Source: an uncultured Tateyamaria sp. (GTDB lineage Bacteria > Pseudomonadota > Alphaproteobacteria > Rhodobacterales > Rhodobacteraceae). From it: a stretch of 64,000 nucleotides of DNA. The notes beneath the pieces are model-generated. The model was not told the origin of the DNA. It saw only the letters and a list, made by a program, of their open reading frames with translations, and did no database searches. Positions within the stretch are counted from its first letter, which is position 1. Every line of letters starts with the position of its first letter. Of this stretch, positions 6,761 through 55,960 are shown one piece after another. The DNA is taken from assembly GCF_947494755.1 (NCBI RefSeq), contig NZ_CANLVZ010000007.1:62001-126000 (forward strand), read 5' to 3'. A program made the position numbers and the translations under genes.

Positions 6761-6765
6761 GTGTT

Positions 6766-6984: not shown

Positions 6985-6986
6985 CA

Positions 6987-7490: not shown

Positions 7491-8274
7491 TCTGCGCCCC
7501 TGCCCGGCCTGCGATGCGTCCGACGCGGCCAAACTCGCCAAATATTCGCGCAAAGAGTGGCACGTGGCGCGATGTGCCAGCTGCAACCTGACCTACCTGC
7601 GCAATCCGGTTGCCTATGAAGCGCTCGAAGAAGAGTTCGCGTGGGAAAAAACCTACGAGACCAAGTCTCAGGCGGGTGGGTCGACCGCGCTCAGCCCATC
7701 GCTGAAAAAGATACGGACCAAAACCGGGCTGACCCATCGCGGTCACGGATCGCGCATGGGTGCGTGGTTCAACAACGGGCATGTCCTTGATATTGGGTGT
7801 GGCGCAAAGACCAACGTCCCCGAGCCGATGACGCCCTATGGGATCGAGTTGAGCCGCAAACTGCACAAGATCGCAGACCGGAAAATGCGCGCGCGTGGAG
7901 GCTACTGCGTCCACGGCGCGGGTGCCGAAGCGATCTGGGACTTTGAGCCCGAGATGTTCGACGGCATCGTCATGCAATCCTACCTCGAACACGAAGTGGA
8001 TCTGATGCGCGTGCTCAATGGCGCATGGCGGGTGATGAAACCAGCCGCCCCAATGTATGTGCGGGTGCCCAATTTCGGCTCGATCAACCGCTACGTGATA
8101 GGCCGCAAATGGTGCGGCTTTCGCTATCCCGATCACGTCACCTATTTCACCGTGCCCACCTTGCGCGACGTGGCGCGCCGCGCCGGTTTCACCGTTGAGG
8201 TGGTCAACCGCGCAACCGTCGCAATCGATGACAACATCAAGGCGCTGTTGCGCAAGGCCGAGGCGCCTGCATGA
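7483..8274 (+). CDS. SAM-dependent methyltransferase with N-terminal zinc ribbon
   Basis: 263 residues. Four cysteines, C7/C10 and C31/C34 (CPAC and CASC), form a likely zinc ribbon. The rest looks like a class I methyltransferase: a shortened motif I near residues 99-106 ([11 protein letters not shown]), then a QSYLEHEVD stretch near 165 equivalent to the post-II helix of Methyltransf_23 members, and a C-terminal [11 protein letters not shown] segment. Proteins of this shape often methylate sugars or polysaccharide intermediates; the substrate here is unknown. It overlaps the preceding gene by eight bases and is followed by sucD after 46 bases, an odd insertion in a TCA operon. Confidence 0.75.
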
Positions 8275-38402: not shown

Positions 38403-38888
38403 ATGCGCAAACTTGCCATAGCCCCCGTTTTTTCTGTGTTGGTTTTTCTGGCCTTTCCCGCGATGGCCGAAATCGAAGAGGCGCGTGACCTGATGGAGGC
38501 GGGCGAGTACACCGCCGCCTATGAGGCGCTCTGGCCCGCCGCGCGGTCGGGCAATGCGGATGCGGAGGAATTGATCGGGGTTATGTACGCCCTCGGCCTC
38601 GGGGTCGAGCGGGACGACGAGCGGGCGTTCGAGTGGTATCTGCGCAGCTCCATGAAGGGGCATCCCGGCGCGCAATCCGGGGTCGGCTGGTACTACGAAG
38701 TGGGCCGCGGCATGCCCGCCCCCGACCTCGTGCGCGCCTATATGTGGTACACCCTCTCGGCCATCGGCGGTGACCCGGACGCGGCCATCTCGCTTGAGGA
38801 AGTGGTCAAGAAGATGACGCAGGAAGAGATCAATCGGGCGCATATTCTGGTCGCTGACTACAAGGTGTGGATGTATCCGTTTCGGTGA
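38403..38888 (+). CDS. Sel1-repeat exported protein
   Basis: 161 residues. Signal peptide to about residue 22 (FPAMA). Two or three Sel1-like repeats follow (about 30-125), for example NADAEELIGVMYALGLGVE near 51-69 and HPGAQSGVGWYYEVGRGMP near 87-105, consistent with an alpha-alpha superhelix used for protein contacts. Its ATG at 38403 abuts the GTG start of the divergent peroxidase, so each promoter must lie in the other's coding sequence. Function unknown. Confidence 0.85.
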   Translation: MRKLAIAPVFSVLVFLAFPAMAEIEEARDLMEAGEYTAAYEALWPAARSGNADAEELIGVMYALGLGVERDDERAFEWYLRSSMKGHPGAQSGVGWYYEVGRGMPAPDLVRAYMWYTLSAIGGDPDAAISLEEVVKKMTQEEINRAHILVADYKVWMYPFR

Positions 38889-39990: not shown

Positions 39991-41049
39991 TCAGTTCAGA
40001 TCCGCATCCCGTGCTGCGTTCACGTCCGCTTCGGCGGCTGCGACGGCTTCTTGCAAAGCCGACAGGATCTCATCCCCGCGCGCCACGTTTTCCACGAACC
40101 AATCGCTCACAGGTGCCGCCGCTTCGGCGAAGGCCGCCTTTTGCTCGGGCGTGGGCACATAGAGGTCACCGCCACCGGCGACGAACTCTTCATAGGCCTG
40201 GATCGACTTGCGCTTGGGCGAGGCAAACGTCGCCTGCTGCAGCGCATAGAACCCGTCGACCACGACGCGGCGCATGTCTTCGGGCATCGCCATGAACTTC
40301 TGGTTGCTCATCCACCACAGCGCGCCCATGTAGGCGTGCCCGTCGAGCGTCACATATTGCAGGCCCGCATCGGGGAATTTCATGCCCATGATGTCGGTGA
40401 TCCCGTTTTTGGAGCCCTCGACAACGCCAGTCTGGAACGAGGTGAAGAGTTCGGGCCATGGGATCGGCGTGGGCGAGGCACCAAGAGCTTTGACCAGCTC
40501 TTGCGGCAGGTCCGCCACGACGGTGCGGATTTTCAGGCCTTCCATGTCTGCAGGCTCGGCCACACGGCGCTTGGTGTTGGCGAAGTTGCGCCAGCCACCT
40601 GTGTTGCCGATGGTCATCAGGCGGATCGCGTCGCCGGAATCCTCAAGCGCCATGTCGCGCATCGTACGGGTGAAGTCGCCCGACAGCACGTGCTCGGCGA
40701 TGCGGTCATCCGCCATCAGGTAAGGCAGATCGAGGACCTGCACGTATGGGAAGATGCCCGACGCGCCACCGGATGTCGAAATGTAGACGTCGATGGAGCC
40801 GTCAGCCACACCTTGCAGACACTCCGCACCGTTGCTGCACAGTTGCGTGCCGATGAACAACTCGACTTCGATTGCGCCGTTGGATGCCGCCTCGACATAG
40901 TTCTTGAACACGACGAGACCGTCATAGTCTTCGTCATTGGTGTTGGAGTTGGCAGTGGCGCGGATCGTGTAGTCCTGCGCACTTGCCATCATGGCCGAGC
41001 CCGCGACAAGCGCGGCGGCCGTGAGGGTTTTCAGGGTCGTTTTGAGCAT
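39991..41049 (-). CDS. dctP: TRAP transporter solute-binding protein (DctP type)
   Basis: 352 residues with a signal peptide to about residue 24. Family character is visible in the periplasmic ligand domain: GLKIRTVVADLPQELVKALGASPTPIPWPELFTSFQTGVVEG near 174-215, including the conserved Arg175 that usually binds a carboxylate or sulfonate. The substrate is a small organic anion. It is the last gene of the (-) operon with a strong ribosome site (GGGAGGA). If the neighbouring enzymes are a sulfoquinovose system, the ligand may be sulfoquinovose or its glyceride; this is inference. Confidence 0.88.
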   Translation of the reverse strand: MLKTTLKTLTAAALVAGSAMMASAQDYTIRATANSNTNDEDYDGLVVFKNYVEAASNGAIEVELFIGTQLCSNGAECLQGVADGSIDVYISTSGGASGIFPYVQVLDLPYLMADDRIAEHVLSGDFTRTMRDMALEDSGDAIRLMTIGNTGGWRNFANTKRRVAEPADMEGLKIRTVVADLPQELVKALGASPTPIPWPELFTSFQTGVVEGSKNGITDIMGMKFPDAGLQYVTLDGHAYMGALWWMSNQKFMAMPEDMRRVVVDGFYALQQATFASPKRKSIQAYEEFVAGGGDLYVPTPEQKAAFAEAAAPVSDWFVENVARGDEILSALQEAVAAAEADVNAARDADLN

Positions 41050-41082
41050 AGTGGTGGTCCTCCCGTTTGAAACTCAAATTGG

Positions 41083-42555
41083 TTAATCGGCAAACCCCGT
41101 CAGGCGGGGAATGGTCATGGAAATGGCCGGCACGTAGGTGATCAGGAAGATCACCGCGACCTCGACGGCCAGGAATGGCAGGATCGCCTTGGCGATGGTT
41201 TCGACTTTCTCCTTGCTGACGGCAGCAGCCACGAACAGCACAAGCCCCATGGGCGGTGTTGCCAGCCCCACGGTCAGGTTCACCGACATGATGATCGCGA
41301 AGTGGATCGAGTCGACCCCCAGATCGGTGAAGATCGGCGCGAGGATCGGCCCTAGGATGATGATCGCGGGCCCGGCATCGAGGAACATGCCCACGATGAA
41401 CAGCAACAGGTTGATCAGGAACAGCAGGATCAGCGGGTTTTCCGACAGCGTCAGAATGTAATCCGCAAGGATTTGCGGCGCGTAGGACAGCGACACCACG
41501 GTCTTGAAGGCCATGGCCGCGCCGACCAGCAGCAGCACAACCGCCGAGGTCAAACCAGCGCGGCTGAGAATGTCCGGCAGGTCTTTCAGCGACATGGTGC
41601 GCAGCACGAAGAACGCGACGAACAGGGCGTAGGCAACAGCGACGGCTGCGGCTTCGGTCGGGGTGAACACCCCACCGAGAATACCGCCAAGGATCAGCAC
41701 GGGGGTTTGCAGCGGCACGATGGCGCGTTTGCAGATCGTGCGGAACTCGGATGACACCTGCGTGCGCAAGGCCAGCATCAAAGCGTGCGCCACCGCGATG
41801 GCGGCTGCGAAGGTCACCCATGCCATCAGGCCATTTGTGTCTGGCAAGGGTGCGATCACCCAGATCAGCAGCCCGATGTTCAGCCGCACCAGCGCGAAGC
41901 TGACCCACTTTTCGAGCGCGCCCAGTTCCACGCCGTCAAACTCGACCTTCTTGGCTGCAGGCAGGTCATAACGGTCCGCCGTCACGCGTATCATCACCAT
42001 CAAGCCCACACCAACCAAGATACCCGGCACGATGCCTGCAAGAAACAGGGCCGCCACGCTTTCGCCCATGACGTAGGCGTAGATAATCATGATGCCCGAT
42101 GGCGGAATGATAGGGCCGATGACGGAGGACGCAGCCGTGATCGCGGCCGCGAAGCGGCGGGTGTAGCCCTCTTTCTCCATTGCTGGGATCAGCATGGAGC
42201 CGAGTGCGGACGTGTCGGCGACCGCCGAGCCGGACAGCCCGGCGAACAGGATCGAGGACAGCACGTTCACCTGCGCCAGCCCGCCGCGCAAATGGCCCAT
42301 CAGGGCTTGGGAAAACTGGACAAGCCGGATCGTGATCCCGCCCTTGTTCATCAACTCGCCCGCCAGCATGAAGAACGGAATCGCCATCAGTGGAAAGCTA
42401 TCCATCCCGTTGTAGACGTTGCGATAAAGCAGGGTGATGTCCTTTTCCTGCCCGCTCATCCAGAGCAGCAAACCGGGTGCGGCCAGCAGGCCAAAGAACA
42501 CCGGCAAGCCGATCAGCAGGAACAGCAGGAACAGAGGCAGAAACCAGATCAGCAT
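41083..42555 (-). CDS. dctM: TRAP transporter large membrane subunit (DctM type)
   Basis: 490 residues, longer than the common 425-430 because of an inserted hydrophobic section near residues 215-260. About 12 transmembrane helices; DctM marks are GGITIRLVQFSQALMGHLRGG near 72 and the SGSAVADTSALGSMLIPAMEKEG segment near 108-130, plus ANILLFLIGMFLD-like IVGMFLDAGPAIIILGP near 385. Inner-membrane Na+-driven transporter subunit. It overlaps dctQ closely (one-base gap). Confidence 0.92.
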   Translation of the reverse strand: MLIWFLPLFLLFLLIGLPVFFGLLAAPGLLLWMSGQEKDITLLYRNVYNGMDSFPLMAIPFFMLAGELMNKGGITIRLVQFSQALMGHLRGGLAQVNVLSSILFAGLSGSAVADTSALGSMLIPAMEKEGYTRRFAAAITAASSVIGPIIPPSGIMIIYAYVMGESVAALFLAGIVPGILVGVGLMVMIRVTADRYDLPAAKKVEFDGVELGALEKWVSFALVRLNIGLLIWVIAPLPDTNGLMAWVTFAAAIAVAHALMLALRTQVSSEFRTICKRAIVPLQTPVLILGGILGGVFTPTEAAAVAVAYALFVAFFVLRTMSLKDLPDILSRAGLTSAVVLLLVGAAMAFKTVVSLSYAPQILADYILTLSENPLILLFLINLLLFIVGMFLDAGPAIIILGPILAPIFTDLGVDSIHFAIIMSVNLTVGLATPPMGLVLFVAAAVSKEKVETIAKAILPFLAVEVAVIFLITYVPAISMTIPRLTGFAD

Positions 42556-42556
42556 C

Positions 42557-43141
42557 TCATTCGGCCCCCTGCATGTCTGTCGGCAGGTCGAGATCGGGTA
42601 ACTGATCCCCGCCCCCCATCATCTGCACGAGGCTGCGCAGGATCAGTTCGATGTTCACAACCAGCAACAGGATCACCCCGACCAGCAGCGACAACATCAT
42701 CCAGCTGCGCGGCACCCGGAACCAGCCATCGAAGGTGGGCAGATACAGGGATGCAGTGGCAAAGCGGCCGCCGAAACCGGTGACTTCCTTGAACCCGATT
42801 TGGACAGCCACGATCAGGATCAGGAGCGAGATCAGCAGCAGGATCAAGGACAAAACGGCAGCAACGCGCGATGACATGAAGCCGGAAATCATATCCAAGG
42901 CGACAAAGCCGCCGCGCCGAAAGGCGGTCGGGGCCATCAAACCGGTCATCCACATCATGCAGAATCGGGCGGCCTCATCCGGCCACGGCAGCGCGTTGTT
43001 GAAAAGATAGCGGGCGACGACCTGAATGAGAATGGCGGCAACCATAAAGGCGATGGCGATGATGCCTATCCCGCGCCCAATCCTGAGCACGAACGCATTC
43101 ACTGCGCTGAGCGGTGCAAGCACCGTCAGTAGTAAGCCCAT
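42557..43141 (-). CDS. dctQ: TRAP transporter small membrane subunit (DctQ type)
   Basis: 194 residues with four transmembrane helices; conserved DctQ segment LPWPDEAARFCMMWMTGLMAP near residues 52-72. Start ATG 43141 is preceded by GGGAGGGCC. It follows the flavin reductase gene after 114 bases, the largest gap in the (-) operon, so an internal promoter is possible. Confidence 0.9.
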   Translation of the reverse strand: MGLLLTVLAPLSAVNAFVLRIGRGIGIIAIAFMVAAILIQVVARYLFNNALPWPDEAARFCMMWMTGLMAPTAFRRGGFVALDMISGFMSSRVAAVLSLILLLISLLILIVAVQIGFKEVTGFGGRFATASLYLPTFDGWFRVPRSWMMLSLLVGVILLLVVNIELILRSLVQMMGGGDQLPDLDLPTDMQGAE

Positions 43142-43255
43142 GCGGGCCCTCCCTTTTGTCGGTCGCCCGGCAGTTAGTCCACCGTGGCCCATTTTCCGCT
43201 TTCACCCCGCGGGCGGGTCGTGTGGCACGCACCGATGGTGCGGGCCGTGTACTTC

Positions 43256-43768
43256 TCAGAGTGCCAGCTTGCCGAAATCGCCAGCAAAGAACGTGAGCGG
43301 ATCGCCATCGCGCATCTCGGTCCGCTGGACCTGACCGACAATGATGACGTGATCGCCCGCGTCATGTGCCGCCACTCTGCGGCATTCAAAGCGCGCAAGG
43401 CAATGATCAATCAGCGGAACACCATCCGCATTCAGCGTAAACGGCAAATCCTTGAGTGCATGGGCATCACGCGCGACCTGCTTGCACAGATCACCCTGTT
43501 CGACCGCCAGAACGTGGATCGCGTAGTGATCAGCGCTACCGAAATATGGAAACCGGCGTGCGGCGCGATCTACCGACCACAGCACCAGCGCCGGGTCGAG
43601 TGACACGGACGAAAAGCTGTTGGCGACAATGGCCACCGGGCCATCCGCGCTTGTGGCGGTGATCACTGTGACCCCGGTGGCAAACTTGCCAAAGGCATCG
43701 CGCAACATGCGCCCCGTCTCGGCATCAGGAGAAAAGGTGGTGGGTTGGTTCGGGTCCTGCATTGTCAT
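43256..43768 (-). CDS. Flavin reductase (SmoA/NTAB-like)
   Basis: 170 residues, flavin-reductase-like split-barrel: FGKFATGVTVITATSADGPVAIVANSFSSVSLDPALVLWSV near residues 22-62, and GDHVIIVGQVQR near 140-151. It supplies reduced FMN to the FMNH2-dependent monooxygenase two genes upstream in the same operon. Start ATG 43768 overlaps the aldo/keto reductase TGA (TGATG). In the sulfo-SMO pathway this place is held by SmoA. Confidence 0.88.
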   Translation of the reverse strand: MTMQDPNQPTTFSPDAETGRMLRDAFGKFATGVTVITATSADGPVAIVANSFSSVSLDPALVLWSVDRAARRFPYFGSADHYAIHVLAVEQGDLCKQVARDAHALKDLPFTLNADGVPLIDHCLARFECRRVAAHDAGDHVIIVGQVQRTEMRDGDPLTFFAGDFGKLAL

Positions 43769-44658
43769 CACGCTACCTCGTGTCCAAGGGCTGCTTCGTA
43801 AAGGCGGAACCATGTCGGCCGGTCCAGCGTGACCTTGAGCGCGTCACTGATCCGCTTGATCCGATCCAAATTATTGGTCCCCATCACAGGCAGGATGCCA
43901 GCGGGATGTGTCAGAAGAAAGGCGACAGCCACCGCTGCCCGGTCGACACTATGGGCACCTGCCAACTCGTCCATCACCTTGTGCAGCTTGTCACTGCCCG
44001 ACATCAGCCCACCGCCACCCAAAGGCGACCACGCCATGAGGTGCTGGCCGTTTTGCTGGTGAAACGCCAGATCGCCATTGGTGAAGGGGCTGATCTCGCC
44101 CAATGAAATCTCGATCTGGTTGGTCAGCAGCGGCGTTTTCATCGCCGATTGCAGCAGTGTCCAGTCATAGGGGCGAAAGTTCGATACACCAACCCCGCGC
44201 ACCTTGCCGCTGGCCACCGCCTCGTCCAGCGCGGCACCGGTTTCATGGTGATCCATGAACGGGTCGGGTCGGTGGATCAGCAGAAGGTCGATATGGTCGA
44301 TCGCCATATCGCTCAGCGAATTCTCGATCGACTGCATGATGTGGGCGCGGCTGGTGTCGTAATATTTGACCGGCGCATCCGCATAGCGACCCGCAGGGGC
44401 CACGATATCGCACTTGGTCACGATCTCCATCTTGGGGCGCAGGCCCTTGTCGGCCTTGAGCGCCTCACCAAGGATCGCCTCGGCGACATACCCGCCATAG
44501 ATGTCGGCCTGATCAAAGGTGGTGATGCCTTGATCGAGGCAGGCGTTGATCTTGGCCTGCACGTGGCCGGTGGTCGTATCTGTGTCATCGCCAATACGCC
44601 ACATCCCGTAGACGAGGCGCGAAAATTCAATTTGATCAGATAGTTCGACGCGATCCAT
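43768..44658 (-). CDS. Aldo/keto reductase (SmoB-like)
   Basis: 296 residues, YdhF/SmoB-like AKR barrel. The AKR tetrad is complete: Asp49 and Tyr54 in FDQADIYGG, Lys82 in IVTKCDI and His129 in LLLIHRPDP. It reduces a carbonyl with NADPH. Located between an SsuD-type monooxygenase and a flavin reductase with TGATG overlaps at both ends, it would reduce the aldehyde left by oxidative desulfonation; in SmoB this is 6-oxo-glucose to glucose. The substrate here is inferred from context only. Confidence 0.88.
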   Translation of the reverse strand: MDRVELSDQIEFSRLVYGMWRIGDDTDTTTGHVQAKINACLDQGITTFDQADIYGGYVAEAILGEALKADKGLRPKMEIVTKCDIVAPAGRYADAPVKYYDTSRAHIMQSIENSLSDMAIDHIDLLLIHRPDPFMDHHETGAALDEAVASGKVRGVGVSNFRPYDWTLLQSAMKTPLLTNQIEISLGEISPFTNGDLAFHQQNGQHLMAWSPLGGGGLMSGSDKLHKVMDELAGAHSVDRAAVAVAFLLTHPAGILPVMGTNNLDRIKRISDALKVTLDRPTWFRLYEAALGHEVA

Positions 44659-45812
44659 CAGCGGCGTTCTCCTGCGGCAAGTGGTGTTGCGGGCGCGCTG
44701 TCAGGCACCCGCCCATAAGCATGGGGCAAAGAACAGGTTTTCAACTGCGGCAGAACGCGCGTGCCGAAGTGCCTGGCCTCGTCGATATGGGGATAGCCCG
44801 AGAAGATGAAGGCGCGAATGCCCATCTTTTGATAGTCTTCGATCTTGGACAGGACCTGATCGGTCGAACCGACCAGTGCCGCACCACAGCCCGAGCGTGC
44901 CCGACCCACACCCGTCCACAGGTTCGGTTCAACATAGCCGAACTTGTCCGCCAGCTCGCGCGCCTTGGCTTGATGAGACACCCCAAGCGAGGTGGAATCA
45001 AGCGCGCGATCCCGGATCAACTGCCCGTATTCGTCATCGAGTTTGGACACGATATAGTCCGCATATTCGCGCGCCTCGGCTTCGGTATCGCGTACGATCA
45101 TGTGGACGCGCAGCCCGTAATCCAATGTGCGACCATAGCGTTCGGCGACCGCGTTCACGTCGCGCATCCGCCCCTCAAGCGCCTCTTTGGGTTCGGGCCA
45201 CATAAGGTAGACGTCGCAATGCTGACCGCACAGCTCCAGCGCCGATGGGCTGTAGCCCCCGAAGTAGAGCAGCGGGCCTCCCGTTTGAAAGGGGCGCACG
45301 GGGTCGGTCGTCAGCCCCTTGAAGGTGTAAACCTCGCCCTCGTAGTTGATTTCGTCCTGCGTCCAAGCCTGTTTCAAAATTTCGACAACCTCGCGCGAAC
45401 GCTGATAGCGATAGTCGCTATCAGCCTTTTCGCCGGGAAAGTCGGAGGAGATAATGTTGACCGTCAGTCGGCCCTTAAGCATGTGATCGAGGGTCGCGAT
45501 GGTGCGGGCCAGCATGATGGGCTGCATCTCTCCGCAGCGGACGGCGGCCAGCAGGTTGATCTTGTCGGTGATGGGGGCACAGCCGGCGACGAACGACAGC
45601 GTATCCTGTCCGACCTGATAGGACGAGGGGCAGAGAATGTTGCGAAAGCCCTGCGCCTCAGCCTCACGCACGATGTCCGAGCAATGCGCCCAGCTTGACC
45701 GCAGCGCGCCGTCCGGCACCCCGAGAAACTGGTAATCGTCCGAGCACAACGCCGAAAACCACGACACTTCGGCAGCGTCAAGATCGGGCGACGTGATGGG
45801 AACGATGGTCAT
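44658..45812 (-). CDS. FMNH2-dependent monooxygenase, SsuD/SmoC-like
   Basis: 384 residues (SsuD about 380). Luciferase-like TIM barrel. Key SsuD-type residues are kept: Arg235 and His237 in YGLRVHMIV, and the mobile loop Arg306 in GRARSGCGAALVG; NIISSDFPGEKADSD near 119-133 matches the phosphate-binding turn. The family uses FMNH2 and O2 to convert an alkanesulfonate to aldehyde and sulfite. Start ATG 45812 follows AAAGGC; an upstream Met lacks a good site. First gene of the operon and its stop couples to the AKR. Distinguishing SmoC (sulfoquinovose) from SsuD needs comparison I cannot run. Confidence 0.9.
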   Translation of the reverse strand: MTIVPITSPDLDAAEVSWFSALCSDDYQFLGVPDGALRSSWAHCSDIVREAEAQGFRNILCPSSYQVGQDTLSFVAGCAPITDKINLLAAVRCGEMQPIMLARTIATLDHMLKGRLTVNIISSDFPGEKADSDYRYQRSREVVEILKQAWTQDEINYEGEVYTFKGLTTDPVRPFQTGGPLLYFGGYSPSALELCGQHCDVYLMWPEPKEALEGRMRDVNAVAERYGRTLDYGLRVHMIVRDTEAEAREYADYIVSKLDDEYGQLIRDRALDSTSLGVSHQAKARELADKFGYVEPNLWTGVGRARSGCGAALVGSTDQVLSKIEDYQKMGIRAFIFSGYPHIDEARHFGTRVLPQLKTCSLPHAYGRVPDSAPATPLAAGERR

Positions 45813-45857
45813 GGGCTGCCTTTCGCGTGTCTCAACTTGTCTCTTGCGTAACACCGT

Positions 45858-45875
45858 CATTGATGTAGATCAATG
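45858..45875. promoter_or_regulatory. FNR-type palindrome in the divergent region
   Basis: CATTGATGTAGATCAATG is a perfect 7-bp inverted repeat with a 4-base spacer. Its core TTGAT-GTAG-ATCAA matches the FNR/FnrL/DNR consensus TTGAT-N4-ATCAA exactly. It lies 46 bases upstream of the monooxygenase start and 38 upstream of the GntR start, so it could act on either promoter. A second regulator, such as the GntR protein itself, might bind it instead. Confidence 0.6.
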
Positions 45876-45913
45876 GTGTATCAATTTCCACCAGCCGCCC
45901 CTTGTGACCTCAC

Positions 45914-46624
45914 GTGACCACACCCCGCCAAACGCCGCAATCGCTGCCGATCTACGTTCAGATCGCCGAACTGCTCACCCGCGATATCGTGTCGGGGCGG
46001 TTGATGGACGGCGCGCGGCTGCCGCCCGAACGGGACATGGCGACCGAGTTGGGGGTAAGCGTCGGCACCCTGCGCAAAGCCCTGCGGGATATGGGCGAAA
46101 AGGGGTTGATCAACAGCGTTCAGGGGTCGGGCAACTATGTGCGTGCGGACGGGGATACCGGCACAATCTATGCAATGTTTCGCCTCGAATTGCTTGACGG
46201 CGGCGGCCTGCCCCGCGCGCAGGTTCTGGATGTGGCGCTGATGGACAAACCCGACGACCTGCCGCCTTTCGGCACGTCCACACAAGCCTCGCGCGTTCGG
46301 CGCTTGCGCACGCTGAATGACACAATCATCGCGGTCGAGGAAATCTGGCTGGACGCGGACGCTGGAACGGTATCCGAGGCGAACATGTCGGATTCGCTTT
46401 ACGCCACCTATCGCAAGACTTTGGGTCTGTGGATTCAGCGGGCCGAGGATCGGGTTTCGCTCGGCCCGGTGCCGGACTGGGCTCCTGACACCTATTCGCC
46501 CCGTCAGGGCGAAACGGCGGGGTATATCGAACGGCTCAGTTGGGCCGACCGCCCTGCACCTATCGAATTTTCGCGCACGTGGTTCGACCCGACCCGCGCG
46601 GTCTATGTCCAACGGCTGAAGTAA
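45914..46624 (+). CDS. GntR-family regulator with UTRA domain
   Basis: 236 residues from GTG 45914. N-terminal GntR winged helix (about 12-78; PIYVQIAELLTRDIVSGRL, then PPERDMATELGVSVGTLRKAL) followed by a UTRA ligand domain (about 90-230) with DTIIAVEEIWLD near 134-145. UTRA domains sense small sugars or their phosphates. Divergent from the monooxygenase operon with 101 bases between starts, it is the probable regulator of both sides, and is followed by a Gfo/Idh/MocA gene after nine bases. Confidence 0.9.
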   Translation: MTTPRQTPQSLPIYVQIAELLTRDIVSGRLMDGARLPPERDMATELGVSVGTLRKALRDMGEKGLINSVQGSGNYVRADGDTGTIYAMFRLELLDGGGLPRAQVLDVALMDKPDDLPPFGTSTQASRVRRLRTLNDTIIAVEEIWLDADAGTVSEANMSDSLYATYRKTLGLWIQRAEDRVSLGPVPDWAPDTYSPRQGETAGYIERLSWADRPAPIEFSRTWFDPTRAVYVQRLK

Positions 46625-46633
46625 GGAATGAAG

Positions 46634-47740
46634 ATGACACAACAGGTCCGCTACGGGATCATCGGCTGCGGCATGATGGGGCAGGAACACATGCGCAATA
46701 TCGGGCTGCTGCCCGAGGCGAGCATCGCCGCGTTTTACGAGCCCGATGACGAGATGGCCGCCCGTGCGCTGGCGATCGCACCCGCCGCCATGCGGGTCGA
46801 CAGCGTGGCCGATCTGCTCGCAATCGAAAACCTCGACTGCCTGTTGATCGTCAGCCCCAACTTCTGCCATGTCGACCAGATGCAGGAGATCGCCGCGACA
46901 CGCCCCCTGCCCCTGCTGGTCGAAAAGCCGCTGTTCACGGACCCCGCCGATGCGACCCGGCTGGCCACGTTCCGCGACAGCTACCCCGCCCCAATCTGGG
47001 TTGCGATGGAATACCGCTACATGCCGGTCATCACGGAGTTTCTAGCTAAGTCGAGTGACGCCACCGGTGGCATCCGCCAGCTCTCAATCCGCGAACACCG
47101 CTTTCCGTTTCTGCAAAAGGTCGGTGATTGGAACCGTTTCAATCGGTTCACGGGCGGCACCTTCGTCGAAAAATGCTGCCACTTCTTTGATCTGATGCGG
47201 CTTGCGCTTGGCTCGGACCCGGTGCGCGTGATGGCCTCAGCCAGTCAGGCGGTCAACCATCTGGACGAGAAATATGAGGGCGAGACGCCGGATATCATCG
47301 ACAGCGGATATGCGATTGTGGATTTTGAGAACGGCACCCGCGCGATGCTGGAATTGTGCATGTTCGCTGAAGGCAGCGCCTATCAGGAAGAGTTGTCCGC
47401 CGTTGGCCCCAACGGCAAGATAGAGGCGTTCGTGCCAGGCCCCGGTCGGTTCTGGCCTGCGCATCTGGGGGCAGCTCCGGTAGCCAAGCTGGTCACCTCG
47501 CCGCGCACGCCGCAGGGGCCGGTGTCGCACGACATTCCGGTGGATCCCACCCTGCTCGAAGCCGGGGATCACAATGGATCGACGTTCTACCAGCATCAGC
47601 GGTTTGTGGCCCTTGTCCGTGGGGAAACAGCACGGCCTGACGTATCGCTTAATGATGGCTGGGCGGCCGTGGCGATGGGGATTGCCGCACAGGAAAGCGC
47701 GCGGACCGGTCAGGCGGTGGATCCGCGCCGCTGGATGTAG
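46634..47740 (+). CDS. Gfo/Idh/MocA oxidoreductase (possible NAD-dependent sulfoquinovosidase)
   Basis: 368 residues from ATG 46634 (AAGGA at six bases; ATG 46628 is possible). N-terminal Rossmann fold with GCGMMG at 11-16, EKP at 95-97 and a C-terminal alpha/beta substrate domain with GGTFVEKCCHFFDLMRLALG near 176-195. The family includes sugar dehydrogenases but also glycosidases such as GH109 and GH188 that use bound NAD in a redox-elimination mechanism. GH188 enzymes (SqgA) hydrolyse sulfoquinovosyl glycerol. Placement beside an SmoABC-like set makes that reading attractive, but sequence alone does not prove it; a simple sugar dehydrogenase is the alternative. Confidence 0.85.
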   Translation: MTQQVRYGIIGCGMMGQEHMRNIGLLPEASIAAFYEPDDEMAARALAIAPAAMRVDSVADLLAIENLDCLLIVSPNFCHVDQMQEIAATRPLPLLVEKPLFTDPADATRLATFRDSYPAPIWVAMEYRYMPVITEFLAKSSDATGGIRQLSIREHRFPFLQKVGDWNRFNRFTGGTFVEKCCHFFDLMRLALGSDPVRVMASASQAVNHLDEKYEGETPDIIDSGYAIVDFENGTRAMLELCMFAEGSAYQEELSAVGPNGKIEAFVPGPGRFWPAHLGAAPVAKLVTSPRTPQGPVSHDIPVDPTLLEAGDHNGSTFYQHQRFVALVRGETARPDVSLNDGWAAVAMGIAAQESARTGQAVDPRRWM

Positions 47741-47759
47741 GCGGAGGACACCTCCGCCT
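47739..47759 (+). repeat. 3' hairpin repeat, copy 3
   Basis: Directly at the Gfo/Idh/MocA stop codon, the plus strand reads AGGCGGAGG, loop ACA, CCTCCGCCT, then TACGCCC. Relative to copies 2 and 4 the seventh stem pair is swapped (C:G to G:C), again compensated. It lies between convergent genes and touches the GH1 stop. Confidence 0.7.
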
Positions 47760-49081
47760 TACGCCCCAAGCATCTGCCGGAATGCGTGCCACGACGCTTT
47801 GGGCGTGCGTTCCAGCGTTTCGAAATCCACATGGACCATCCCGAACCGCTTTTCATAGCCAAGCGCCCATTCGTAATTGTCGAGTAAGGACCACGCCATG
47901 TAGCCTTTGACCGGCACGCCATTGGCGATGGCCTCGCGCACCGCACTGAGGTGGCTGTTGAAATAGTCGATGCGCGCCTGATCCTGCACCGCCCCATCCG
48001 ACACCGTATCGGCATTGGCCATCCCGTTTTCGGTGACCCAGAGCGGGACGTCGCCAGTATACTCCGCCGCTGTGCGCACCAGAAAATCGTGCAAGCCTTG
48101 CGGATAGACCTCCCACCCCATCTGGGTCTTGGACAGTGGCCCCTCTACGCCGTTGTGGTGCGGCCAAGGCCCATCGTTTGGCGCGATTATGGAACGGGTG
48201 TAGTAATTGACCCCCGCCCAGTCCAAAGGTGCGGAGATGGTCGCGAGGTCATCCTGCCAGCGGTCGGGGAAATGCTGGCCCAAAGCCTTGACCACGCGGT
48301 CGGGGTACGTGCCCTTGAACGCACCCGAGATGTAGAACCGATTGTAGTAATCATCATAGAGCGCCGCCGCCTCGACCGCTTCGGGGCTGTCATCGGCGGG
48401 CGTGGCCCATTCCATGTTGAACACCGCGCCCAAGTTGCTCAGCCCCATACCGCGCATCCGCTCGATGCTGGTGCCATGGGCCAGCAACACGTGGTGCATC
48501 GCCCGCGCGGTGGCCCTGATGTCGCGCAGCCCCGGCGCGTGATGGCCCAAGAAATGCGACAGGAAGGCGACGCACCAGAATTCATTGATGGTGGCGATGG
48601 AATGCATCCGATCCCCGATGCGGCCCATGATGACCTCGGTGAAATCCCCGAACCACCCGGCAATATCGCGATTGCGCCAGCCCCCCTGATCAGCCAGCGC
48701 GCTTGGCAGTTCCCAATGGTAAAGGGTGGCGCAGGGTTTCAGGCCACGTTCCAGCATCGCGTCGGTGAGCCGGTCATAGAAATCGAGGCCCTCGGAGTTC
48801 ACCGTGCGCCCGTCGGGCATCACCCGCGCCCAACTGGTCGAAAAACGGTAGGCGTCGAACCCACCATCTTTCAGCAGGTCCAGATCGGCTTCGTAGCGGT
48901 GGTAGTGATCGCAGGCCACGGCCCCATCCTCGGCCCGGACCACATTGCCGGGGGTGGCGGCGAAATCGTCCCACATCGCGCGGCCCGCGCCGCCATATTG
49001 GTGCCCTTCGATCTGGTACGCAGAGGTCGCGGCCCCAAAGACGAACCCTTTGGGGAAATCTGAGCGTTTGTGGATCAGCAT
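47759..49081 (-). CDS. Beta-glucosidase, GH1
   Basis: 440 residues from ATG 49081. GH1 (beta/alpha)8 enzyme with acid/base Glu167 in TINEFW (the TxNEP motif with Phe in place of Pro) and nucleophile Glu351 in WVTENGMAN; substrate glycine-rich AATSAYQIEG near 17-26. Cytoplasmic, no signal peptide. It hydrolyses beta-glucosides or related glycosides. AAGGA lies in the end of aglR, so it is translationally linked to the regulator rather than to the aglEFGAK genes. If the locus to the left handles sulfoquinovosides, GH1 is unrelated to it. Confidence 0.92.
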   Translation of the reverse strand: MLIHKRSDFPKGFVFGAATSAYQIEGHQYGGAGRAMWDDFAATPGNVVRAEDGAVACDHYHRYEADLDLLKDGGFDAYRFSTSWARVMPDGRTVNSEGLDFYDRLTDAMLERGLKPCATLYHWELPSALADQGGWRNRDIAGWFGDFTEVIMGRIGDRMHSIATINEFWCVAFLSHFLGHHAPGLRDIRATARAMHHVLLAHGTSIERMRGMGLSNLGAVFNMEWATPADDSPEAVEAAALYDDYYNRFYISGAFKGTYPDRVVKALGQHFPDRWQDDLATISAPLDWAGVNYYTRSIIAPNDGPWPHHNGVEGPLSKTQMGWEVYPQGLHDFLVRTAAEYTGDVPLWVTENGMANADTVSDGAVQDQARIDYFNSHLSAVREAIANGVPVKGYMAWSLLDNYEWALGYEKRFGMVHVDFETLERTPKASWHAFRQMLGA

Positions 49082-49083
49082 GA

Positions 49084-50124
49084 TCAATCCTTGGTGTGAG
49101 GTGATTTATATGGCCCGGTTGAGGGGCCTATTACAAAGTCCGCCTCCCACAGGGTTTGAGTATGTGGGGCGTCAGGCGTGTTGATCCGGTCGATCAGCAT
49201 TTGGGCCAAGGCCGCCCCCGCAGCACGAACCGAGGATTGCATAGCCGTAAAGACCGGCGTTTCAGACCCATTGGCGAAATAGCTGAGGCAGTCGTCAAAG
49301 GTCACGATGGACACGTCCGAGCCTTGCTTCAGGTCGCGCGCGTCCAATGCGCGGCGCACGCCCACAGCGCAGATGATGGACGACACTAGGAAGGCCGAAG
49401 GAGGATTGGGCAGGTCGAGCATCGCAGACGCGCTGGCAAAGCCGTACTTCTCGGTCATCTCACCCGATACCATGAGGGTGGGATCGACGCTGAGCCCCGC
49501 CTCGGCCAACGCGCTGACATAGCCCTCGCGGCGACGGATCGCGAAATCAAGCGTCTCCTGACCGTTGATCAGGCCTATACGGCTGTGGCCAAGCGAGACG
49601 AGGTAGCGCGCAGCATCCTGAAACGCACGGCGGTTGTTCACATCAAGCCAAGAGTAGTCGAGGTCGGTGCCCGTTGAGCGCCCGTGGACCACAAAGGGCA
49701 GACCGATTTCGGTGAGCAGCGGCAGGCGCGCATCGGAATTGCGCGGCGCATGGACCACCAGCCCGTCGACCGCACCGCGGGCCTGCAAATTGCGGTAGGT
49801 GTCGGACTCATCCTGTGCGCCGACGCGGGTCATCATCATGTCATACCCGTGGGCGGCGTATGTCTCGCCCGCGCCAGCCATGAAGTCACCAAAGATCGGA
49901 TTCACCATTTCACCCGAATCGTTCACCGAAATCACATGCCCGATACAGCGGCTGTGACCCGTCGCCAGACCCTGCGCGCGGGTGTTCGGGCTATAGTTGT
50001 GCGCTTGGGCGGCGGCGATAACCCGCGCACGCGTCGCCTCGGACACCTCTGGATAGCCGTTCAGCGCGCGACTGACAGTTGTCTGGCTGATCCCCAGAAG
50101 GTGAGAGAGTTCCTTTAGATTCAC
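49084..50124 (-). CDS. aglR: LacI-family repressor of the alpha-glucoside operon
   Basis: 346 residues from GTG 50124 (VNLKELSHLLGISQTTVSRALNGYPEVSEATRARV). N-terminal LacI HTH (about 1-50) with the hinge, then a periplasmic-binding-like effector domain (about 60-335). It resembles Sinorhizobium AglR, the repressor of aglEFGAK, in sequence start and in divergent position. Effector is probably an alpha-glucoside. Two matching operators lie upstream of aglE. It is transcribed with the GH1 gene (minus). Confidence 0.9.
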   Translation of the reverse strand: MNLKELSHLLGISQTTVSRALNGYPEVSEATRARVIAAAQAHNYSPNTRAQGLATGHSRCIGHVISVNDSGEMVNPIFGDFMAGAGETYAAHGYDMMMTRVGAQDESDTYRNLQARGAVDGLVVHAPRNSDARLPLLTEIGLPFVVHGRSTGTDLDYSWLDVNNRRAFQDAARYLVSLGHSRIGLINGQETLDFAIRRREGYVSALAEAGLSVDPTLMVSGEMTEKYGFASASAMLDLPNPPSAFLVSSIICAVGVRRALDARDLKQGSDVSIVTFDDCLSYFANGSETPVFTAMQSSVRAAGAALAQMLIDRINTPDAPHTQTLWEADFVIGPSTGPYKSPHTKD

Positions 50125-50202
50125 AGTAATTCCGGTTATAAGACGCGCGTATTCCACGCGACGCTACCCAATGCGAGGGCTGGCGTCAAAACCTTCACAG
50201 CG

Positions 50203-50224
50203 TTTTCCAATGCGCTTTGGAAAA
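50203..50224. promoter_or_regulatory. LacI-type operator O1 (distal)
   Basis: Arms TTTTCCAA and TTGGAAAA flank TGCGCT, a 22-bp palindrome with one central mismatch. The centre is exactly 80 bp upstream of O2. It lies 80 bases upstream of aglR and would permit looping or autoregulation. Confidence 0.75.
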
Positions 50225-50248
50225 ATACGCGCCAGAGTCGCACAACGT

Positions 50249-50278
50249 TTGACAGACGGGGTTTTTTCAGCGACCGTT
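50249..50278 (+). promoter_or_regulatory. Candidate aglE promoter
   Basis: A consensus -35 TTGACA at 50249-50254 followed, after 17 to 18 bases, by a weak -10 (GACCGT) near 50272-50278. The predicted start falls at or just before O2, which fits repression. The -10 is poor, so confidence is moderate. Confidence 0.45.
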
Positions 50279-50287
50279 GCGCCATTC

Positions 50288-50299
50288 CAAAGCGCTTTG
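50288..50299. promoter_or_regulatory. LacI-type operator O2 (proximal)
   Basis: CAAAGCGCTTTG is a perfect 12-bp palindrome with the AAAGCGCTTT core typical of LacI/AglR sites, 67 bases upstream of the aglE start codon and right after the candidate promoter. Confidence 0.8.
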
Positions 50300-50365
50300 A
50301 CATGAGAGCGCTGGCGACGGTGCACGCATCGATCGACCTTGGACACGAATGGGAGGAAGACCAAA

Positions 50366-51724
50366 ATGACAAAGACACTTCTGGCCAGTGCAGCCGCACT
50401 GGCTATCACAGCTGCGTCGGCACATGCTGACGGCCACCTGACGTTCGCCCCCGGCGAAGGCCCCTTTAGCTGGGACAGCTATAATGCGTGGGCCGAGGGC
50501 GCCCCTGACCTGAGCGGTCAGACCGTCACAGTGTTCGGCCCATGGCTGACACCTGAGGACGGATACCTCAACAACGCGCTTGCCTATTTCGAGGAAGCCA
50601 CCGGCGCTGACGTGATCTATACTGGCTCTGACAGCTTCGAGCAGCAGATCGTGATCGACGCCGAGGCCGGTTCGGCCCCAAACATCGCCGTGTTCCCGCA
50701 GCCCGGTCTCGCGGCTGTTATGGCTGGCAAGGGCCAGCTGCACCCCCTGCCCGACGGCAGCGCGGACTGGGTCAATGAAAACTACGCGGCGGGTCAGTCG
50801 TGGGTTGATCTGGGCACCTATGCGGATGCCGACGGCAACGACCAGATGTACGGCTTTTTCTACAATGTGAACGTCAAGTCGTTGGTCTGGTACAACCCCG
50901 AGAACTTCGAGGATGCCGGTTACGACATTCCCGAAACCATGGAAGATCTGAAAGCCCTGACAGACCAGATCGTCGCCGATGGCGAGACACCCTGGTGCAT
51001 CGGTCTGGGTTCAGGTGCCGCGACGGGCTGGCCAGCGACCGACTGGGTCGAGGACATGATGCTGCGCACCGTGGAACCCGAAGTCTATGACCAGTGGACC
51101 ACAAACGAGATCCCGTTCGATGACCCACGCGTTGTGGCCGCCATCGAAGAGTTCGGCCACTTTGCCCGTGACGACGCGAAAGTATCTGGCGGTGCAGGCG
51201 CTGTTGCTTCGACCGACTTCCGGGACAGCCCCAAGGGTCTCTTCTCGTCGCCCCCACAGTGCTACATGCACCGTCAGGCCTCGTTCGTGCCCGCGTTCTT
51301 CCCGGAGGATGTTGAATTCGGTGTCGACACCGGCTTCTTCTACTTCCCCTCCTACGCGTCCAAAGACTTGGGCAACCCGGTTCTGGGCGGCGGCACGTTG
51401 ATGGCGATCACCGACCCATCCGACGCCACAAGCGCGCTGATGGAGTTCTTCCAACTGCCCCTCAGCCACGAGATCATGATGGCGCAGACCGGCTTCCTCA
51501 CCCCCCACAAGGGTGTGAACACCGAAGCCTACAAGGACGACACGCTGCGCGCATTGGGTGACGTTCTGCTTGGCGCGACCACGTTCCGCTTTGACGGGTC
51601 CGACCTGATGCCAGGCGGCGTTGGTGCAGGGACGTTCTGGACCGGCATGGTTGACTACACCGGCGGCAAAGACGCTGCGGCTGTGGCCAGCGACATTCAG
51701 GCCAGCTGGGACGCCCTGAAGTAA
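50366..51724 (+). CDS. aglE: Alpha-glucoside ABC transporter, substrate-binding protein
   Basis: 452 residues. Signal peptide 1-22 (ASAHA-D). Family-1 extracellular sugar-binding protein with WLTPEDGYLNNALAYFEEATG near residues 63-83, YTGSDSFEQQIVIDAEAGSAPNIAVFPQPG near 87-116, and a YGFFYNVNVKSLVWYNP segment near 163. AglE of S. meliloti binds sucrose, trehalose and maltose, as I recall. ATG 50366 after GGGAGGA. A 3' hairpin separates it from aglF. Confidence 0.94.
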   Translation: MTKTLLASAAALAITAASAHADGHLTFAPGEGPFSWDSYNAWAEGAPDLSGQTVTVFGPWLTPEDGYLNNALAYFEEATGADVIYTGSDSFEQQIVIDAEAGSAPNIAVFPQPGLAAVMAGKGQLHPLPDGSADWVNENYAAGQSWVDLGTYADADGNDQMYGFFYNVNVKSLVWYNPENFEDAGYDIPETMEDLKALTDQIVADGETPWCIGLGSGAATGWPATDWVEDMMLRTVEPEVYDQWTTNEIPFDDPRVVAAIEEFGHFARDDAKVSGGAGAVASTDFRDSPKGLFSSPPQCYMHRQASFVPAFFPEDVEFGVDTGFFYFPSYASKDLGNPVLGGGTLMAITDPSDATSALMEFFQLPLSHEIMMAQTGFLTPHKGVNTEAYKDDTLRALGDVLLGATTFRFDGSDLMPGGVGAGTFWTGMVDYTGGKDAAAVASDIQASWDALK

Positions 51725-51751
51725 ACGCGACCACTCGCGAAAAAGACCGAT

Positions 51752-51774
51752 CAGCCCGCATATTCCGCGGGCTG
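51752..51774 (+). terminator. Hairpin after aglE
   Basis: CAGCCCGC / GCGGGCTG, perfect 8-bp stem, 7-base loop ATATTCC. No T-run follows, so it is probably an mRNA-stabilising or partial-termination element that favours aglE over downstream permease genes. Confidence 0.6.
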
Positions 51775-51839
51775 GTCCAAGACCACAAGGCCACAAGGTC
51801 GTAAAAAGACCATCAGGTCTCTGGCAAGGGAGACGCGCC

Positions 51840-53075
51840 ATGAACCCCGCACTACTCGGTTTAATTACAATCATCGCCGGCGTTGGCGGATGTATTGGTT
51901 ATTTCTATCTGTCCAACCAGTTTCTGGACAAAGTCCTGTTCCCCGCGAAGGGGCCGAACGCCGGGCAGAACATCAACCGCGCCAATATGATCCGGCCCTG
52001 GCTGTTCCTGTTCCCTGCGCTGTTCGCCCTTGGCCTGTATCTGGCCTATCCGGTGTTCGAAACGCTGCGCCTGTCGCTGACAGACCGGGATCAGGGTGGT
52101 GCGTTTGTGGGTCTTGAAAACTATCAGCAGATGTTCTCTGAACCGAAATTCTGGGAAGCACTCAGCAACAACATGCTTTGGCTGATCGTTGTTCCCGCTG
52201 CGGCCACCGCCTTCGGCCTGCTGGCCGCGCAGCTGACCGACCGCATCAAATGGGGATCGGTCGCGAAATCCCTGATCTTTATGCCCATGGCGATCTCGTT
52301 CGTCGGTGCGGCTGTGATCTTCAAACTGGTCTATGACACACGCCCCGTGGATCAGAACCAGATCGGCATCCTGAACGCCGTGTGGTTGCAGTTTGAGGGG
52401 GGCGTTGGGTCGTTCCTGTTCCTCAAGGCGCTGCCTGCGCTGATCCTTGCGTCATTCGCGGGCATCGTGGCCTATGTCGGCTGGATTTTCATTCAGCCCA
52501 TCGCCAACCGCAATGACGAAGGGGGCGGAGTCGGCTTTGTCCCCTTGCGTCTCTTTGTCGGCGTCGCCGCGCTCTATCTTGTGTGGCTGTCCGTAAAATC
52601 GCTGGCGGGCCTGTTCGTCTTTAACTTTCCTTACGGTGAGCCGCAGACCTGGCTCACGATCCCCTTCTGGAACAGCTTTTTCCTGATGGTCGTGCTGATC
52701 TGGATTCAGACAGGGTTTGCCATGGTGATCCTGTCCGCCGCCCTGCGCGGCATCCCCGAGGAAACCATCGAGGCCGCCATCGTGGATGGGGCCAACCCGT
52801 TGCAGGTGTTCTTCAAGATCAAAGTGCCGCAGATCATGGGCACCATCGTGGTGGTCTGGACGACGATCACGCTGGTCGTGCTCAAGGTCTTTGACATCGT
52901 GTTCGCCATGTCCAACGGGCAGTGGGAAACACAGGTTCTGGCCAACTACATGTACGACAAACTGTTCCGCGCCGATGAATGGGGGGTTGGGTCTGCCAGC
53001 GCGATCATCATCATGCTGCTTGTGTCGCCCATCCTGATCTGGAACGTCTATAACGCCCGCAAGGAGATGAAATAA
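51840..53075 (+). CDS. aglF: Alpha-glucoside ABC transporter, permease 1
   Basis: 411 residues, longer than the roughly 330 I remember for AglF. Membrane segments occur near 7-27, 52-75, 112-133 and onward; the EAA loop EAAIVDGANPLQVFFKIKVP is at 311-330. The extra material is at about 181-266, with two or three added hydrophobic helices (SFLFLKALPALILASFAG... and LFVGVAALYLVWLSVKSLAG) between the usual fourth and fifth helices. It begins MNPALLGLITIIAGVG after AAGGGAG and its TAA shares an A with the aglG ATG. Confidence 0.9.
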   Translation: MNPALLGLITIIAGVGGCIGYFYLSNQFLDKVLFPAKGPNAGQNINRANMIRPWLFLFPALFALGLYLAYPVFETLRLSLTDRDQGGAFVGLENYQQMFSEPKFWEALSNNMLWLIVVPAAATAFGLLAAQLTDRIKWGSVAKSLIFMPMAISFVGAAVIFKLVYDTRPVDQNQIGILNAVWLQFEGGVGSFLFLKALPALILASFAGIVAYVGWIFIQPIANRNDEGGGVGFVPLRLFVGVAALYLVWLSVKSLAGLFVFNFPYGEPQTWLTIPFWNSFFLMVVLIWIQTGFAMVILSAALRGIPEETIEAAIVDGANPLQVFFKIKVPQIMGTIVVVWTTITLVVLKVFDIVFAMSNGQWETQVLANYMYDKLFRADEWGVGSASAIIIMLLVSPILIWNVYNARKEMK

Positions 53076-54229
53076 TGGACAATATCGCTGGTTCCAAATC
53101 ATCCCTTGGGTGGGTTGTTCAAATCTGTACCGTCCTTTTGGTCGCGCTTTGGATCTTCCCAACCGTCGGATTGCTGGTCTCGTCCTTCCGGACGGCTGAC
53201 CAAATCTCATCGTCGGGCTGGTGGGCGGCGCTGTTTCCGTCCGAGCAATCCCAACGCTACCGTGTGGCCGACCCGGACGAAAACCGCAGCAACGTCGACG
53301 GCGTCTATGTTGTCGAGGGCAACTTCTTTGCCGAAAACGGCGGCGGCGGCGATATCAAAAGCTGGGGCACATCCAGCCGCGAGATTGGCGCATATGCGCC
53401 CGGCGAAGTCGCCGACCTGGGTGATGGTGAGACGTTCAGTGTGGATGCCGAAGGCAACTATGTTTGGACCGGTAATGATGAACAGATCAGTGGTCGGGGC
53501 CAGCGCGCCTTTGTGACGGCGGTATCCCCACCGGAATTCACCTTCGAAAACTACAAGACCATCCTGTTTTCTGGCACCGCCGGGGACAATATGACCAAGG
53601 CGTTTTTCAACACGCTGACAGTGACGATCCCCGCGACGGTCATCCCGATCGTGGTGGCGGCCTTTGCAGCCTATGCGCTGGCGTGGATGGACTTTCCGGG
53701 GCGTGCGCTGCTGATCGCGATCATCGTCGGGCTGCTGGTTGTGCCGCTGCAACTCGCACTTATTCCGCTGCTCTCGCTGCATGTGGGCATCGGAATCGGC
53801 AAGGGGTATCTGGGCACCTGGCTTGCCCATACGGGGTTCGGCTTACCGCTCGCGATATATCTCTTACGCAACTACATGGTGGGCTTGCCTAGGGACATCA
53901 TCGAAAACGCCAAGGTGGACGGGGCGACGGACTTCCAGATCTTTACCAAGATCATCCTCCCACTGTCGTTCCCGGCCTTGGCGTCCTTCGCGATCTTCCA
54001 GTTCCTGTGGACTTGGAATGACCTGCTGGTGGCCAAAGTGTTCCTGATCGACTCGACGGGGCAAACAACGGTGATGACCGACCAGATCGTGAACCTTCTG
54101 GGCACACGCGGAGGCAACTGGGAAATCCTTGCCACGGCGGCCTTTGTGTCGATCGCGGTGCCGCTGGTCGTGTTCTTTGCGATGCAAAAGTATCTGGTGC
54201 GCGGTCTGCTGGCCGGCTCTGTAAAGTAA
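53075..54229 (+). CDS. aglG: Alpha-glucoside ABC transporter, permease 2
   Basis: 384 residues with six transmembrane helices. A long periplasmic loop (about 45-155) separates the first helix from the rest, as is usual for AglG/GanQ-like proteins; EAA-loop equivalent ENAKVDGATDFQIFTKIILP is near 277-296. The start overlaps the aglF stop (TAATG). Confidence 0.93.
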   Translation: MDNIAGSKSSLGWVVQICTVLLVALWIFPTVGLLVSSFRTADQISSSGWWAALFPSEQSQRYRVADPDENRSNVDGVYVVEGNFFAENGGGGDIKSWGTSSREIGAYAPGEVADLGDGETFSVDAEGNYVWTGNDEQISGRGQRAFVTAVSPPEFTFENYKTILFSGTAGDNMTKAFFNTLTVTIPATVIPIVVAAFAAYALAWMDFPGRALLIAIIVGLLVVPLQLALIPLLSLHVGIGIGKGYLGTWLAHTGFGLPLAIYLLRNYMVGLPRDIIENAKVDGATDFQIFTKIILPLSFPALASFAIFQFLWTWNDLLVAKVFLIDSTGQTTVMTDQIVNLLGTRGGNWEILATAAFVSIAVPLVVFFAMQKYLVRGLLAGSVK

Positions 54230-54252
54230 ACTGCGGAAACTAGGACCGTAAG

Positions 54253-55908: not shown

Positions 55909-55921
55909 GAGACAAAGGAAC

Positions 55922-55946
55922 GACGCCCGACCCAGCGGGCGTCTTT
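55922..55946 (+). terminator. Hairpin between aglA and aglK
   Basis: GACGCCCG, loop ACCCAG, CGGGCGTC, then TTT. Perfect 8-bp stem with a short T-run: a weak rho-independent terminator or attenuator inside the operon, ahead of the ATPase gene. Confidence 0.6.
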
Positions 55947-55960
55947 AGGGAGGGACAACA

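Follow-up and report, generated by a model that had tools for sequence, protein, structure and literature searches.

Sulfoquinovose (SQ) production has been put at 10 billion tons per year, and Roseobacters have been named as important marine users (PMC10755693). The closest described route is the SQ monooxygenase pathway (sulfo-SMO, also called sulfo-ASMO; PMC9594981 and PMC12890257) of Agrobacterium and Novosphingobium, in which enzymes of the SmoC, SmoB, and SmoA types occur together with an ATP-binding cassette (ABC) importer for sulfoquinovosyl glycerol (SQGro) and a GH31 glycosidase. We analyzed a locus from an uncultured Tateyamaria sp., a Roseobacter-type genome, that lies in a 64,000-nucleotide stretch of contig NZ_CANLVZ010000007.1 (the window). 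The same three enzyme types stand together in the window, joined by a tripartite ATP-independent periplasmic (TRAP) transporter and a GH188 gene where Agrobacterium and Novosphingobium have the ABC importer and GH31. Roseobacter sulfo-SMO clusters of the same clade also contain GH188 (Kaur et al. 2023, PMC10755693), and since that paper states that GH188 is near-universal in them, the enzyme set was already known; no enzyme difference between those clusters and the window was seen. The words TRAP, transporter, and DctP are absent from the main text of the same paper; its diagrams or supplements may show a TRAP system. In the literature searched, we found no paper tying a TRAP transporter to SQ uptake, though others, such as Liu et al. 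2023, may do so, and no tested function for this importer family. The enzymes are thus of a known kind, and what is new is the evidence on the cargo of the TRAP transporter.

The smo operon and the divergent GH188 gene

A first-pass annotation of this locus had named eight genes, all of which were recovered by profile matches on the strands it had given. The operon runs on the reverse strand from 45812 to 39991, in the order smoC, smoB, smoA, dctQ, dctM, dctP. The gene for the predicted FMNH2-dependent SQ monooxygenase, smoC (44658..45812; PF00296 Bac_luciferase), lies in an open reading frame that opens at 45860, and the start at 45812 (residue 17) is probable because many relatives begin aligning there. 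It overlaps by 1 nucleotide with smoB (43768..44658; PF00248 Aldo_ket_red), encoding an aldo/keto reductase predicted to reduce 6-dehydroglucose, which is followed by smoA (43256..43768; PF01613), the gene for an NAD(P)H flavin reductase that is the predicted source of FMNH2. The smoA frame opens at 43813, and its start at 43768 is probable because the TGATG junction with smoB is real; the sequence bore out both that junction and the one between smoC and smoB, as first described. The operon continues with dctQ, the TRAP small permease (42557..43192; PF04290), dctM, the large permease (41083..42555; PF06808 and TIGR00786), and dctP (39991..41049; PF03480), which encodes the solute-binding protein, with SQ or an SQ glycoside as its predicted ligand. 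The ABC importer that accompanies the smo genes in the Agrobacterium layout, a feature that sulfo-SMO clusters need not all have, was not found here; DctQMP occupies that place. An ARAGORN call of tRNA-Pro at 44851-44925, inside smoC, was taken as a false positive and was absent from the six relatives scanned.

Against the PDB, SmoC scored 724 bits to 7olf and 713 bits to 7oh2, followed by 200 bits to 7jv3 (MsuD) and 185 bits to 1nqk/1m41 (SsuD), so that the solved SQ monooxygenases outscore every other entry more than threefold. The titles of 7olf and 7oh2 both describe an FMNH2-dependent monooxygenase for the oxidative desulfurization of sulfoquinovose; their chain names, "Methanesulfonate sulfonatase" and "Alkanesulfonate monooxygenase," are older. 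Identity of SmoC to 12 relatives was 79 to 93%, and the five nearest SmoC loci, 92 to 97% identical, all carry the name Tateyamaria. The first-pass annotation had allowed for an alkanesulfonate pathway, with a monooxygenase nearer to SsuD. In a fold search alone MsuD does tie with 7olf and 7oh2, on a poor AlphaFold model (mean predicted local distance difference test [pLDDT] score, 51.6) that served solely for reading PDB titles. The separation from SsuD and MsuD was judged by the bit scores above, the gap being deemed sufficient in place of a tree, and SmoC also falls below the cut-off of the SsuD model TIGR03565 (245 versus 518 bits). With a GH188 sulfoquinovosidase gene adjoining the operon as well, it is highly improbable that the monooxygenase belongs to SsuD/MsuD-type scavenging of alkanesulfonates or other sulfonates.

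The other two enzymes agree with a sulfo-SMO assignment. The SmoB aldo/keto reductase scored 404 bits to 7bby/7bbz, about twice the 209 bits of the next PDB entry. Those two structures are listed in the PDB as "Aryl-alcohol dehydrogenase," and we take them to be the SmoB of Sharma et al. 2022. The PDB relatives of the flavin reductase are generic and its subfamily is not diagnostic, so SmoA is named by its position. With SmoC- and SmoB-type matches and a PF01613 reductase in one operon, the three sulfo-SMO enzyme types that had first been proposed hold up.

The divergent Gfo/Idh/MocA gene (46628..47740, forward strand) was present as first reported, but its label of oxidoreductase needed correction, a glycosidase assignment having been overlooked: from sequence, the protein is a predicted GH188 NAD-dependent sulfoquinovosidase of the SqgA type. 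Alignments spanning almost the whole protein scored 341 bits against 8qc2 and 338 bits against 8qc3, the structures of FlSqgA and ArSqgA according to PMC10755693; its top PDB match, 8zn9 (561 bits), is listed merely as a putative oxidoreductase. Eight residues named in PMC10755693 were checked, and all are kept in the window protein. Lys107, Tyr136, Glu189, His193, and His321 of ArSqgA correspond to K100, Y129, E181, H185, and H315, and the sulfonate-binding Arg166, Leu170, and Lys172 correspond to R158, L162, and K164. The Glu163 of PMC10755693 is Val163 in our numbering, with a Glu at position 164 that is kept as E156; a difference in numbering is assumed. No GH31 protein was found in the window genome by a search that was positive in 6 of 14 control genomes.

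Distribution of the TRAP transporter among SmoC genomes

The best 80 of 584 SmoC relatives gave 79 loci long enough to judge. DctP or DctM lay nearby in 56 of these loci and was missing from 23, four of which (L044, L064, L078, and L081) are cut by contig ends. Homologs of the GH188 protein were found in 100 of 105 SmoC loci and of the GntR regulator in 101 of 105. The original proposal of a sulfo-SMO system with a TRAP importer is supported as the best reading of the operon, judged from gene content, but the window does not represent an isolated variant, this being the commonest layout among near relatives.

We then considered 295 evenly sampled genomes of the family, close to one for each genus, with calling thresholds of E<=1e-150 for SmoC, E<=1e-100 for DctP, and E<=1e-90 for an SQ-isomerase-like gene. 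SmoC was present in 123 genomes, a DctP orthologue in 102, and both in 75, giving a Fisher odds ratio of 8.4 and a p value of 8e-16 (kinship inflates the Fisher values). Where both occurred, no more than 7.1 kb separated dctP from smoC in 71 genomes, and the two genes were on separate contigs in the other 4. This proximity, seen in genomes nearly all from different genera, is beyond chance.

For the SMO loci that lack TRAP genes, an ABC importer was considered as a substitute. The one sample with an ABC system, locus L069, was set aside, its binding protein matching none of the SQ-binding PDB entries known to us. That protein, encoded near smoC, shares 57% identity across 405 residues with the product of 50339-51724 in the window, which belongs to a glucoside cluster described below. 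No known importer was recognized among four sampled proteins of locus L021 or three of L033, the latter including one PF03601 membrane protein. Locus L069 also encodes, at 6474-8039 beside SmoC and GH188, a protein that combines an FAD-dependent oxidoreductase domain with a glycerophosphate-oxidase C-terminal domain, which fits use of SQGro-derived glycerol.

The same DctP beside a second predicted sulfoquinovose pathway

DctP without an intact SmoC was found in 27 genomes, from each of which one locus was scanned. Of the first 20 of these loci, 17 had GH188, and 15 had a PfkB kinase, a LacD-type aldolase, and an isomerase; locus L120 encodes, besides GH188, an aldehyde dehydrogenase and an aldose epimerase. 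We read these loci as a sulfo-Embden-Meyerhof-Parnas (sulfo-EMP)-type pathway. Hybrid EMP1/2 sets have been described in Proteobacteria (PMC12890257). Such sulfo-EMP/EMP2 hybrids share the TRAP family of the window in 18 genomes of the same bacterial family, and GH188 in the loci read, but unlike the window they would proceed by C-C cleavage, through the isomerase, PfkB kinase, LacD-type aldolase, and aldehyde dehydrogenase. The isomerase matches a single NCBIfam model, NF048012 (sulfoquinovose isomerase), and the aldolase also matches sulfofructosephosphate aldolase entries, weakly. A PDB search with the L120 isomerase gave no match.

The SQ-isomerase-like gene was found in 24 of the 295 genomes. 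All 24 are among the 102 with DctP, and none are among the 193 others (p 1e-12); the gene and dctP were no more than 10 kb apart in 18 of the 24. A single genome, G298, carries both SmoC and the isomerase, and the window genome lacks the isomerase at E<=1e-90. One TRAP transporter thus stands beside two chemically unrelated SQ pathways and, in most cases, an SQ glycosidase, which makes SQ or its glycoside the simplest cargo; that the transporter carries one of the two is a prediction supported by this linkage.

These counts bear on a further explanation, namely, that the enzymes are sulfo-SMO enzymes and the TRAP system a mere neighbor that imports a dicarboxylate, sulfolactate, dihydroxypropanesulfonate (DHPS), or a small acid of another kind. 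TRAP binding proteins are generally considered to accept little other than carboxylates (PMC4646407), TRAP systems of a gut bacterium have been proposed to serve taurine and sulfolactate (PMC10507020), and this DctP is missing from 48 of the 123 SmoC genomes. A small-acid cargo would nonetheless not account for the linkage of the same DctP with GH188 and with another, unrelated SQ pathway, or for the restriction of the isomerase to DctP genomes, and we consider it quite unlikely.

Several observations do weigh against assigning the TRAP transporter, and the locus as a whole, to SQ use. In addition to the 48 SmoC genomes without this DctP, a search at E<=1e-40 found no DctP elsewhere in 15 SmoC genomes lacking a nearby TRAP; this search had no positive control of its own, the same query having given matches in another search. 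As TRAP is absent from many SmoC genomes, it is not required for the pathway. The isomerase scored 256 to 277 bits in the three cases tested, below the NF048012 cut-off of 700, and is for that reason a relative and not a certified member of that model. Three genomes, G091, G269, and G192, have DctP with neither pathway marker; smoB adjoins the TRAP genes in G269, where smoC is lacking, a smoA-like gene adjoins them in G091, and the DctP of G192 is only 51% alike. A fourth, G259, has a split smoC. Finally, the one PF00174 protein of the window genome, a candidate for the disposal of sulfite, is encoded on another contig, and the DctP model is least certain where the binding residues are located (see below).

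At three loci (L136, L142, and L130), smoB lies beside the TRAP genes, along with smoA in L136 and L142, and no smoC was found in the genome at E<=1e-20. These are possibly decaying loci or cases in which another oxygenase is used.

The binding protein and its predicted cargo

The presence of P, Q, and M subunits and of a conserved binding-site arginine places the transporter among DctP-type TRAP systems. Conserved residues of the binding protein are R154, R175, W198, N215, C71, and C77, of which R175 aligns with an arginine of 4p47 and is present in all seven alignable paralogues. At the key positions, 56 SMO-linked sequences have the same residues as 23 sequences from genomes with the isomerase. 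The AlphaFold model of DctP (mean pLDDT, 67.7) matches TRAP binding proteins in fold, with pLDDT below 50 at 152-159 and 195-239, the location of the binding residues. The TRAP binding protein IseP, for which the cargo is isethionate (PMC11668362), matches the window DctP with 91 bits and 20% identity, and other TRAP proteins match equally; the window DctP is predicted instead to bind a sulfosugar or its glycoside.

Between these two cargoes, the location of the glycosidase is informative. The GH188 protein has no export signal, as judged by eye, so the glycoside would have to enter the cell, which makes SQGro the likelier cargo. It is conceivable that the transporter imports only free SQ, with SQ glycosides entering by another route or going unused, and TRAP pockets are usually small. 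Roseobacters had also earlier been proposed to grow on free SQ only (Liu et al. 2023, as related in PMC10755693). We nevertheless find import of free SQ alone less likely, given that a GH188 enzyme that shows no sign of being exported makes sense beside the operon solely if glycosides enter, and that the Agrobacterium ABC importer is described as an SQGro transporter (PMC9594981).

Regulation and neighboring genes

The regulator gene (45914..46624, forward strand; GntR/UTRA type, PF00392 and PF07702) is divergent from smoC. Upstream of smoC, a conserved motif, AATTGATA.AC.ATTGAT (45869..45886, reverse strand), was found in 54 of 71 smoC upstream stretches and is a promoter or operator candidate. 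It overlaps a perfect palindrome, TTGATN4ATCAA (45860..45873), which was found in 31 of the 71 stretches and has its sole match in the window here, with 0.05 expected. The palindrome is presumably FNR-box-like and may place this oxygen-dependent pathway under oxygen-responsive control.

On the other side of the operon, the left edge first proposed for the locus proved too narrow, the genes within it being correct, as a further gene, with a divergent neighbor, often occurs near dctP. This gene, from 37092 to about 38402 on the reverse strand (start codon unsure), encodes a MauG-like protein of the di-heme cytochrome c peroxidase family (PF03150; two CxxCH motifs). Its divergent neighbor (38403..38888, forward strand) encodes a secreted protein, by its translation, that we presumptively call Sel1/TPR-like; it has solely sub-cut-off NCBIfam matches, TPR-type models included. 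Of the 102 genomes with DctP, at least 64 have the MauG-like gene no more than 10 kb from dctP, comprising at least 46 of 75 with SmoC and at least 18 of 24 with the isomerase, and 41 of 76 SmoC loci longer than 8 kb contain it. At locus L120, the MauG-like and kinase reading frames share 4 bases. A MauG-like gene is found somewhere in 172 of the 295 genomes (E<=1e-90), and the window genome carries another besides the one at this locus; with such genes common, it is linkage and not presence that counts, and the linkage counts are raw values, uncalibrated against background. A literature search on SQ with MauG returned nothing on point. Several TRAP loci have, next to the MauG-like gene, a PhyH-type dioxygenase gene, assigned by Pfam in L138 (7994-8758) and by BLAST in L135, L140, L141, L014, and L047.

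Beyond the GH188 gene, genes for GH1, LacI, an ABC sugar importer, GH13, and an ATPase make up a cluster for glucoside use at 47759-57052 that adjoins the SQ locus. The ABC system itself (50339-57052) sits among the GH1 and GH13 genes, and we read it as a probable glucoside importer. GH1 or LacI homologs are also found near SmoC in loci L015, L034, L056, L065, and L070.

Proposed function and implications

Taken from the gene content, this locus very probably allows a Roseobacter-group bacterium to utilize the sulfolipid head group from plants and algae, through uptake, release of glycerol, and desulfonation. DctP would bind SQ or, more likely, SQGro in the periplasm, and DctQM would import it. 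The GH188 enzyme, from its family and intact active site, would cut the glycoside to SQ inside the cell. SmoA would reduce FMN, and SmoC, by close homology, would use FMNH2 and O2 to oxidize SQ at C6, yielding sulfite and 6-dehydroglucose, which SmoB would reduce to glucose for entry into central metabolism. From its position, the GntR/UTRA protein is the probable regulator of both divergent units. In other members of the family, the same TRAP family may also serve sulfo-EMP-type SQ pathways, an association that was counted above.

We tentatively extend this proposal to a single TRAP family acting as a pathway-independent sulfosugar importer, recombined with either SMO or sulfo-EMP enzymes, in which the periplasmic MauG-like protein, perhaps with the Sel1-like protein, would be a working part. 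The MauG-like protein might then act, for example, on the cargo, on the binding protein, or on a periplasmic oxidant, and it would be a new component of sulfosugar use. If the cargo assignment is true, this DctP family would be, to our knowledge, the first TRAP family for a sulfosugar, and the dctP gene would mark SQ use in marine metagenomes whichever pathway is present.

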